Of a stretch of DNA of 64,000 nucleotides, positions 11,140 to 16,579 are shown piece after piece. A program made the position numbers and the translations under genes. The stretch's first letter is position 1. Each line of letters opens with the position of its first letter. The DNA is taken from positions 192,370-256,369 of the forward strand of contig JANLFK010000004.1 in the NCBI GenBank assembly GCA_024655945.1. Reading direction: 5' to 3'. The stretch is from a candidate division KSB1 bacterium (GTDB taxonomy: Bacteria; Zhuqueibacterota; Zhuqueibacteria; JANLFK01; Oleimicrobiaceae). The notes under the pieces were generated by a model. It was not told the origin of the DNA. It saw only the letters and a list, made by a program, of their open reading frames with translations, and did no database searches.

Positions 11140-11817
11140 ATGAGCTGTCTTGAGAAAACGAACATGCGAAGGATTTCCGCCCTCATCGACGCGGAGGGTG
11201 TGCAGGAGTTGGTCCAGCTGCTGGACGCCTGGACCGGGCGCTGGCACCAGGAGTGCCCGAACATGCCCGCCAAGCCAGACGGGTTGCTCGAGCTGCTGCA
11301 GGCTCTGCATGTGTGCAATTTCTCCCTCTGGCATGAAGAAGACGAGGCGCGCCGTCCGGATGTGGCCGATGCGGTCATCGTCGCGCATAAGAGGGCCATT
11401 GACCACTGGAACCAGCGGAGGAATGACACCATCGAGCAGCTGGACGGCCACTTGCTTGCCGCGTTGCAACGACTGGGTGTTCGCCCCCATTCGGGTGCCA
11501 CGCAAAACTCAGAAACGCCGGGCAGCATCCTGGACCGGTTGTCCATCGCCTCGCTGAAGATCTATCACATGGCCGAACAGGCGCGCCGCGAGGACGCGGG
11601 TCCGGGACACCGTGCCGCCTGCGAGGGGCGCCGTGCGGTCCTGCAGGAACAGCGGGATGACCTGATTGTCTCCTTAGAACGCCTGCTCAAGGAGATCCTG
11701 GCCGGAGAGAAGAGACTCAAGCTCTATCGGCAGTTCAAGATGTACAACGACCCTGCGCTGAATCCGGCGCTCTACGGTGCCGGAAAAGGGAGCACGAAGG
11801 ACCCACAAAGCGAATGA
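11140..11817 (+). CDS. DUF4254 family protein
   Basis: 225 aa, largely helical. The segment NFSLWHEEDEARRPD matches the DUF4254 signature (N-x-x-LWHxED-x-AR). A second in-frame ATG lies at 11164. In some genomes the family sits near glycosyltransferase or envelope genes; its activity is unknown. Its stop overlaps the start of the next gene (ATGA at 11814), suggesting coupled translation. Confidence 0.72.
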   Translation: MSCLEKTNMRRISALIDAEGVQELVQLLDAWTGRWHQECPNMPAKPDGLLELLQALHVCNFSLWHEEDEARRPDVADAVIVAHKRAIDHWNQRRNDTIEQLDGHLLAALQRLGVRPHSGATQNSETPGSILDRLSIASLKIYHMAEQARREDAGPGHRAACEGRRAVLQEQRDDLIVSLERLLKEILAGEKRLKLYRQFKMYNDPALNPALYGAGKGSTKDPQSE

Positions 11818-13199
11818 GGGAGAAGCTGTACAGCTACCTGCGGGGGAGAGCTGGAGCTGTGCCCTCGGCCCAGTTGGTGAGGGACGTGCTGGGGATTGAA
11901 GGCGCCTCGCCGCAGATTGCAGAAAGGCTCATCGCTGCTGCCGTGGCAGGCGACACGCGCTTCGAGCACACCGCAGCCGGGTGGCAAGTGAAGGGGCGTG
12001 ACCTGCACCAGGTGCTCTTCCTGGCGGCCGTCGGGTCGCGCGAGACAAGTCAACTGGCGTTCACGGTCCTACATGGTCTCAGTGTAGCCGGGGGAGGGGT
12101 CATTGCATTCGCCGGGGCGCAGCGCCTGCCCAAGGTGAGTTGGCAGGGCAGCATTCCTGCGTGCGGCGGTGGGAAGGGCAGCTTAGCTGACCTTCTTCGG
12201 GCAGTGCAGGCGGGCTGCGTCGTGGAGTTCAAAGGAACAACAGCGTTTCGTTGGTTGAACAGCTTGAGCGTGCGCGCCGGCTTCGGGGAGTTGGAGTGCG
12301 ATGTCTTCTCCCTCCAGGGCCTCGCGCGTGGGGTATTGGAGCAGAAGGTGACTTCGGGAGAAAAACTTGCCGCCGTCCTCGGCTTGCCTTTGCGACTTGA
12401 AAACGGTCCTCTGTCCGTGAGCAGGCTCTTGGCGGAGGAGCTCACCGTGCTCCTGGAACATTGCTTGGAGAAAGGCATCTCCACCTTAGATGAGCTCGTG
12501 GAGCTTGCCGAGCCGCCTGTTCCGCCGGCGCATTGGTCCAGCCTCCGCTTTGGCCCTGAGTTTCTGCGGAGCCTGCCGCAGACGCCGGGTGTGTATCTCA
12601 TGCTCTCCAAGCTTGGCGAGGTCCTCTACGTGGGCAAAGCGCGCAATGTGCGCCAGCGGGTGCGCAGCTACTTCCAGGCCTCGCGCGCTGAAGAGGCAAA
12701 GACTGCCTTGTTGCGCCACCACTTGCACGACATACCCATCGTGGAGGTGGGCTCTGAGCTTGAGGCCTTACTGTTAGAACATCGTCTGATTGCGGAGCAC
12801 GATCCGCCAGTGAACCGGCAGTCGGAGGTGCATGCGCGGCCAGTTAGGGCGCGGGCGCGGGCCAACCGCATCCTGCTCCTTCCCTCCGTGGTGCCCGGGG
12901 CCGTGGAGCTGTTCTTCGCCACCCACGGCGGGGCGTTCGCGCAGTTGCGGGCACAATCCCCGCTGGCCGACGAGGAAGCGCGCGCCCTTTTGCACAGGCT
13001 CTACTTCTCTCCTGGCCAAAGGGCGCCAGGGGAATTGGAACAGCAGCTTGCCGAGATCCTTTTTAGCTGGTTGGAACGAAACCAGGACAGCGTGAGCTGG
13101 GTGGAAGTGGATGAGTCGCGCGATGCAGAGGACTGCCTGCGCCTCCTCAGGCTGCATGTGGACAACTTCATGCCGGGCACCAGGCAGATCTTCCGCTGA
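11814..13199 (+). CDS. Winged-helix / degenerate DnaQ-like / GIY-YIG fusion protein
   Basis: 461 aa. Residues ~1-60 resemble a winged helix. Residues ~64-235 follow the layout of a DnaQ (epsilon) exonuclease, ending in the family-like GISTLDELVEL, but the acidic residues of ExoI, ExoII and ExoIII are missing (FLAAVGS, EFKGTTAFRWL, LSVSRLLAEE), so nuclease activity there is unlikely. From ~257 comes an intact UvrC/Cho-type GIY-YIG domain (PGVYLM, LYVGKARNVRQRVRSYF, catalytic Glu in SELEALLLEHRLI). The C-terminus resembles the UvrC-like tail of DnaQ-GIY-YIG fusions of Bacteroidota and Actinobacteria. A role in DNA repair incision is likely (inference). Confidence 0.72.
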   Translation: MREKLYSYLRGRAGAVPSAQLVRDVLGIEGASPQIAERLIAAAVAGDTRFEHTAAGWQVKGRDLHQVLFLAAVGSRETSQLAFTVLHGLSVAGGGVIAFAGAQRLPKVSWQGSIPACGGGKGSLADLLRAVQAGCVVEFKGTTAFRWLNSLSVRAGFGELECDVFSLQGLARGVLEQKVTSGEKLAAVLGLPLRLENGPLSVSRLLAEELTVLLEHCLEKGISTLDELVELAEPPVPPAHWSSLRFGPEFLRSLPQTPGVYLMLSKLGEVLYVGKARNVRQRVRSYFQASRAEEAKTALLRHHLHDIPIVEVGSELEALLLEHRLIAEHDPPVNRQSEVHARPVRARARANRILLLPSVVPGAVELFFATHGGAFAQLRAQSPLADEEARALLHRLYFSPGQRAPGELEQQLAEILFSWLERNQDSVSWVEVDESRDAEDCLRLLRLHVDNFMPGTRQIFR

Positions 13200-15835: not shown

Positions 15836-16579
15836 ATGCCTAATGACCTGTTCCGGCCCCAGGTGAGCGCATATGTGGTGAACATTCGCCCCTGGCGGAT
15901 CGCCAGAGCGGTGCGCCAGTACCTGAAGACGTCTGACCGCTTCGCCACCCTTTTCGAGGGCTTTATCAGGGAACTCGGCGTGGCAGCCGAGGAGCTGGAG
16001 CGCGTCAGGGCCATGCTTCAGGAGGTCCACCACGACCTGACGCTTGTCTTCCGCCGCCCGGAAGATATCGCTGCCGGCAGGTTCCAGCAAGTGGGTAAAT
16101 TCACCCCGCAGGGGCCGGAGCTGCGTTTCCTGGTCAATGTGGAGCTGCTTTGGCACAAGATGAAGGTGGTGGAGGAGTACCGCTGCGGCGTCGGGTACTA
16201 CCACGACGACCAGGAAGGCAGGCAGACTATCCAGGAGACCCTTTCAACCAATCTGGTGAACATCAAGAGTCTGTTCGATGAGGGGCGGGAGCTTCTCCTC
16301 GAATTGATCGCATCGTATGCCGACGATGTGCCTCTGCTGGCATGGATAATCGAAGAGCCAGATGAGGTGGCTTTAGGCCTAGGGATGTCGGCAGAGAGGC
16401 TTTTGGCGCGCATCCTGGGCCCGGAAGGAGTAGCAGACGCCTATCGCAAGGTGGGCGAGTACTACTTGGAGAGCGGCTGGGGGGAACGAGCTGCACAGGT
16501 TCTTGCTGCCGGAGCTCGGCTTAAGGACGCAATGGCTAAGCCGGTCGCCCACGTTGAGCTCCGGCAGCACGAGAAATGA
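15836..16579 (+). CDS. Protein of unknown function
   Basis: 247 aa. I do not recognise a family. There is no signal peptide or membrane segment. It is mostly helical and rich in Glu and Arg, with possible coiled-coil stretches (AAEELERVRAMLQEVHHDL). A central part has clustered aromatics and Cys (EYRCGVGYYHDD). Coding is supported by codon use matching the neighbours, a GGCGAGG site before the ATG and tight packing between the peptidase and the STAS promoter. Probably cytoplasmic. Confidence 0.7.
   Translation: MPNDLFRPQVSAYVVNIRPWRIARAVRQYLKTSDRFATLFEGFIRELGVAAEELERVRAMLQEVHHDLTLVFRRPEDIAAGRFQQVGKFTPQGPELRFLVNVELLWHKMKVVEEYRCGVGYYHDDQEGRQTIQETLSTNLVNIKSLFDEGRELLLELIASYADDVPLLAWIIEEPDEVALGLGMSAERLLARILGPEGVADAYRKVGEYYLESGWGERAAQVLAAGARLKDAMAKPVAHVELRQHEK

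Follow-up and report, generated by a model that had tools for sequence, protein, structure and literature searches.

A GIY-YIG nuclease family of a candidate division KSB1 class that retains a DnaQ-like domain lacking its exonuclease residues

A DnaQ-type exonuclease domain placed directly before a GIY-YIG nuclease domain of the UvrC/Cho type is the hallmark of the Cho-like+Exo subfamily (Dunin-Horkawicz 2006, PMC1564403), which corresponds to PRK07883, “DEDD exonuclease domain-containing protein”. DnaQ/GIY-YIG fusions have been explained by a nick-then-digest scheme in which the GIY-YIG domain makes the incision and the exonuclease then digests the DNA across the lesion (a proposal that PMC1564403 cites), and the GIY-YIG/DnaQ fusions of Bacteroidetes have predicted LexA-regulated promoters and are predicted SOS genes (PMC8565304). 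Here we analyze a related protein encoded within a 64,000 nucleotide stretch of a candidate division KSB1 genome (contig JANLFK010000004.1, positions 192,370 to 256,369), referred to below as the window and numbered from its first base. The best NCBIfam match of this protein is NF005906, which is among the PRK07883 models (E = 7e-28), with a score of 97.2 bits against a curated cut-off of 495. It shares with the Cho-like+Exo proteins the DnaQ-type domain directly before the GIY-YIG domain, while its family differs from them in having lost the DEDDh residues, in having an added winged-helix-like N-domain, and in carrying a new C-terminal domain instead of the C4-UvrBb C-terminus.

The nuclease gene occupies positions 11814–13199 of the forward strand, as do all features described here, and encodes 461 amino acids from an ATG start. 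The gene immediately upstream (11140–11817) encodes a DUF4254 protein (PF14063, E = 6e-51) and overlaps the nuclease gene by four bases (ATGA, joining its TGA stop to the ATG start), which suggests that the two may be translationally coupled in the genus of the window alone. DUF4254 was considered as an obligatory partner and rejected, as neighborhood comparison limits the coupling to that genus. Outside the genus the upstream neighbor of the nuclease gene is often DUF4199-like or CYTH. The N-terminal domain covers approximately residues 1–62 (11814–11999). The N-terminal parts of intact wHTH-DnaQ proteins (L147, L148 and L004, the last from a proteobacterial MAG) align to this stretch (hhalign P = 8.8e-15), while Pfam and PDB profile searches gave nothing convincing for a winged-helix fold. 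The N-terminal winged helix proposed in the initial annotation stands as a homologue of the wHTH-DnaQ N-termini, and it is from the sequence pattern that we infer the fold itself. The middle domain (residues 63–236) is followed by a linker of residues 237–248 (12522–12557), the DFSxYxFDxxF region of the family, in which F246 is invariant. The same annotation had described GISTLDELVEL leading into PGVYLM, and this was confirmed, with GISTLDELV at residues 221–229 ahead of PGVYLM at 258–263.

No RNase_T/DnaQ Pfam match was obtained for any of the 28 family members scanned, the window protein giving GIY-YIG alone with confidence, so that the claim of a DnaQ domain needed profile-profile tests. 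A profile of the degenerate domain built from 28 members (residues 63–240) matched the intact wHTH-DnaQ relatives with an hhalign P value of 4e-12 and a probability of 97.6%, and matched unrelated DnaQ domains, from DinG-type and sensor-DnaQ proteins with nothing else in common with the family, with P = 4.9e-8 across 160 columns. Shuffling its columns (ten replicates) or reversing the profile gave P ≥ 0.24, and twelve unrelated neighbor families, used as real-protein controls, gave P ≥ 0.058. Taken together, the N-domain and DnaQ domain matched the intact wHTH-DnaQ set over the whole length with P = 2e-24. The top PDB match of the degenerate profile was the exonuclease of PolC (2p1j), weak at E = 0.12 although the alignment ran from end to end; the intact set matches the same structure at E = 1.6e-46.

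The clade of the window is by itself too diverged for a firm match to DnaQ (P = 1.6e-4 over the second half of the domain), and the fold of the window protein rests on the family. A family profile made without this clade still matches it (E = 2.6e-12, against 9.5e-4 for the best shuffle). A single-sequence AlphaFold2 model of the window protein, with a mean pLDDT of 35, was uninformative as to an RNase H-like fold. When the window protein and L004 are aligned as a pair with MAFFT, their DnaQ parts shift out of register, and claims about individual residues therefore rest on the family alignment. Judged from these profile comparisons, residues 63–236 (12000–12521) descend from DEDDh (DnaQ) exonucleases, for the window through its family, and the DnaQ-like central domain of the initial annotation is supported by both family-level matches and their controls.

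Every catalytic position of this domain is substituted in the window protein. The residues aligned with the ExoI D/E are V/S, those aligned with the ExoII H/N/D are F/K/A and those aligned with the ExoIII H/D are N/V, so the window has none of the catalytic acids that had been reported missing from the three Exo motifs. In the family alignment the ExoII Asp, the ExoIII His and the ExoIII Asp are each present in 0 of 36 homologs, and the ExoI Asp and ExoI Glu are each kept in 3 of 34. Two members retain a ghost of the ExoI motif with both its D and its E, L109 as LIDVES and L146 as IDFEY. Intact relatives are found in two genomes from other lineages of the phylum (G066 and G062), where stand-alone proteins combine the N-domain with an intact DnaQ domain (LDVEITG / AHNAHFD / HHLARDD and LDVEIIG / AHNARFD / HHRARSD). 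In a tree rooted on three outgroups only, the degenerate members form a clade separate from the intact outgroups with support of 100/99, and the simplest reading of this grouping is that ExoII and ExoIII catalysis was lost on the stem of the class, before the class diversified. A survey of homologs had been suggested as a way to locate the loss of the DEDD residues, and it is by the intact outgroups that the loss is placed on this stem. The class genomes themselves yielded no intact wHTH-DnaQ paralogue. A decayed stand-alone wHTH-DnaQ copy, with in-frame stops and its ExoI part gone, lies at positions 1501–2075 of locus L156, in another genome of the phylum from outside the class (G063).

The range of dN/dS within the genus is 0.22–0.38 for the DnaQ-like domain, 0.08–0.13 for the N-domain and 0.11–0.16 for the GIY-YIG domain, the more divergent pairs being nearly saturated at synonymous sites. 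Identity across the family is 17% in the DnaQ-like domain versus 27% in the winged-helix-like domain and 47% in the GIY-YIG domain. The DnaQ-like domain evolves approximately twice as fast as its neighbors and, though the least constrained part of the protein, is under continued purifying selection. A chance pseudogene was rejected on the basis of conserved synteny and dN/dS. In the main clade of 17 members the former ExoII motif AHNxxFD has become DGFGNQ, the equivalent of which in the window lies in the former ExoII strand and helix (residues 137–151, VEFKGTTAFRWLNSL; 12222–12266). The ExoII-motif columns of the main clade are more conserved than the remaining domain (p = 1.9e-5) and account for six of the 12 columns that rank highest in conservation (hypergeometric p = 4.7e-6), both values ignoring kinship among the sequences. 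At the former ExoI turn, too, Pro is nearly invariant and Trp is frequent. In f1, which is the three-member clade of the window, and in f3/f9 and f5/f8 the former ExoII pocket shows no special conservation, and DGFGNQ was rejected as a family-wide signature since it is confined to the main clade. The dN/dS values and the conserved DGFGNQ of the largest clade argue that the pseudo-DnaQ domain is not simply decaying.

The GIY-YIG domain (residues 249–338; 12558–12827) is intact and of the UvrC type. It matches Pfam PF01541 above the cut-off (E = 4e-9, residues 259–331), and the nearest solved structure is the UvrC N-domain 1yd6 (E = 8.6e-16, residues 249–334). Y261, Y272, G274, R282 and E322 are present in 36 of 36 homologs, K275 in 35 of 36 and N334 in 35, the remaining row being masked as X, so that the active site described as complete from the window alone has catalytic residues that are essentially invariant. 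GIY-YIG domains are expected to make single-strand incisions, and with a complete site the same would be expected here.

The C-terminal domain (residues 339–461; 12828–13196) aligns across the class and has a near-invariant Trp, which is W419 in the window. It has no C4 cluster, with 0–5 scattered Cys residues across the family and one in the window. The C-termini of Cho-like proteins and of L004 gave no hhalign match to it, and comparison with PDB chains gave chance-level matches only. Of the UvrC domains Pfam identified GIY-YIG alone, the EndoV-like and HhH domains being absent. On these comparisons the C-terminal domain is new and family-specific.

Of 63 genomes from the uncultured class to which the window belongs, 41 carry the nuclease gene, in some as fragments at contig ends, as judged from searches by protein and then by family profile and from our own tally of the match table; the family is kept across many families of the class. 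The DnaQ-GIY-YIG fusion was absent from all 19 genomes compared from elsewhere in the phylum. Outside the phylum at least one protein, L004, has the N-domain, an intact DnaQ domain, a GIY-YIG domain and a Cys-rich C-terminus, a lower bound because this search was pattern-based. One class genome carries the nuclease gene as two overlapping frames (G044:C3:600498-601668; profile positions 48–329 and 328–463), either a frameshift or an assembly error. In genus g5 of the class three proteins of approximately 700 amino acids (L157, L159 and L162) have an N-terminus that looks sensor-like by eye and an intact C-terminal DnaQ domain; their genomes lack the nuclease family.

Downstream of the nuclease gene, families f1, f2, f4, f7, f10, f12 and f13 mostly have an M61 and/or M14 peptidase gene, a gene for a protein of approximately 240 amino acids and a STAS gene, with varying completeness. 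This conserved neighborhood argues for a vertically inherited gene that has apparently long been kept, and gives no pointer to its function; the M61 and M14 peptidases and STAS are uninformative as to DNA repair. In the window the approximately 240 amino acid protein (15836–16579) is uncharacterized, with no match in Pfam or NCBIfam, and members of its cluster lie close to the nuclease gene at 18 loci from seven class families, usually beside STAS. The search for links to defense systems, phages and viruses returned GIY-YIG matches only and one marginal PADLOC match.

The role of the middle domain could be that of a vestigial spacer under relaxed selection, which merely joins the winged helix to the nuclease and binds nothing. 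This would agree with its being the part of the protein that evolves fastest (dN/dS 0.22–0.38 vs. 0.08–0.16; identity 17% vs. 27% and 47%) and with the lack of special conservation at the old ExoII pocket in f1, f3/f9 and f5/f8. However, the domain has been kept across many families of the class, is under purifying selection and in 17 members has acquired a new DGFGNQ where the ExoII motif stood, and we consider a mere spacer unlikely. The new conserved polar residues at the old active site, and the ExoI D and E kept in L109 and L146, raise the question of whether the domain is alive as a different hydrolase, using rearranged residues such as the D, N and Q of DGFGNQ or those ExoI acids. No acidic set is conserved family-wide, however, all of these acids are missing from the window protein, and the members with ExoI acids lack those of ExoII and ExoIII, so an active hydrolase is very improbable.

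Finally, the resemblance to DnaQ could be spurious and residues 63–236 an unrelated domain, as might be thought from the blank Pfam result in this region and the weak score of the f1 clade alone. Against this the hhalign matches extend across the whole domain (P = 4e-12 and 5e-8, controls P ≥ 0.058), the protein is colinear with wHTH-DnaQ and wHTH-DnaQ-GIY-YIG proteins, and L109 has the ghost ExoI motif LIDVES; we give this explanation almost no weight. The reading that we favor, and think probable, is that the protein is a chromosomal multidomain endonuclease with a wHTH-DnaQ(-GIY-YIG) exonuclease-nickase as its ancestor, in which the dead DnaQ domain serves as a noncatalytic module aiming the GIY-YIG nuclease outside UvrABC.

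In such an endonuclease the DEDDh residues would have been lost before the class diversified, with the DnaQ fold kept in a noncatalytic form. The pseudo-DnaQ domain probably still grips a DNA end, a single strand or a partner through the old substrate groove, and together with the winged-helix-like domain it would position the active UvrC-type GIY-YIG domain, which may make one single-strand incision, while the new C-terminal domain would provide recruitment. As the C4 and UvrB-binding region is gone, the protein probably acts outside UvrABC and independently of UvrB. A role in DNA damage is plausible by analogy with the predicted SOS genes of Bacteroidetes (PMC8565304). The earlier proposal that the exonuclease domain was converted into a binding or scaffold module gains from the continued selection and has its best support in the main clade, whose 17 members carry DGFGNQ; the three-member clade of the window lacks this motif. 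A more tentative extension, which is possible but which we rather doubt, is that these are class-wide nickases independent of nucleotide excision repair whose ancestral proofreading-type exonuclease domain has been neofunctionalized, its dead active site having been remade into a conserved ligand pocket (DGFGNQ) that recognizes a partner, a nucleotide or the 3′ end of DNA and in this way gates or aims the GIY-YIG cut.

With respect to the nick-then-digest scheme, a conserved family that has lost the digesting step and kept the domain suggests that digestion is dispensable. The family is in effect a natural separation-of-function mutant, and the intact outgroups within the phylum make a before and after comparison directly testable. 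The initial annotation read the sequence correctly and its reading extends to the whole class, although it had not seen the class-wide loss, the missing C4/UvrB-binding region or the new C-terminal domain; its functional interpretation is plausible, with the best support coming from clades other than that of the window.

Among known proteins L004 (Centralia_MAG_154) has the same order of N-domain, DnaQ and GIY-YIG, with 30% identity over residues 2–335, but its exonuclease motifs are intact (LDLETTG / AHNxxFD / HRALGDA) and it retains the Cys-rich C-terminus, with a further C-terminal region; in a poorly resolved tree its GIY-YIG domain is not the sister of that of the family. The stand-alone wHTH-DnaQ proteins of sister lineages (L147/L154 and L148/L155) are homologous throughout the N-domain and DnaQ domain, but have an intact DEDDh set and no GIY-YIG domain. 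UvrC and Cho share the GIY-YIG domain type and active site, whereas the window protein lacks EndoV-like, HhH, C4 or UvrB-binding domains, and the genome of the window also encodes a separate UvrC-sized GIY-YIG protein. A precedent is the large fragment of Bst Pol I, which reportedly can form proofreading complexes although it has no exonuclease activity (PMC5990039). Its dead exonuclease domain has likewise lost many critical residues, is kept in a DNA enzyme and still joins DNA complexes, although it is part of a polymerase with another architecture. The family described here is a variant of the known Cho-like+Exo kind in which the exonuclease domain has lost its catalytic residues.
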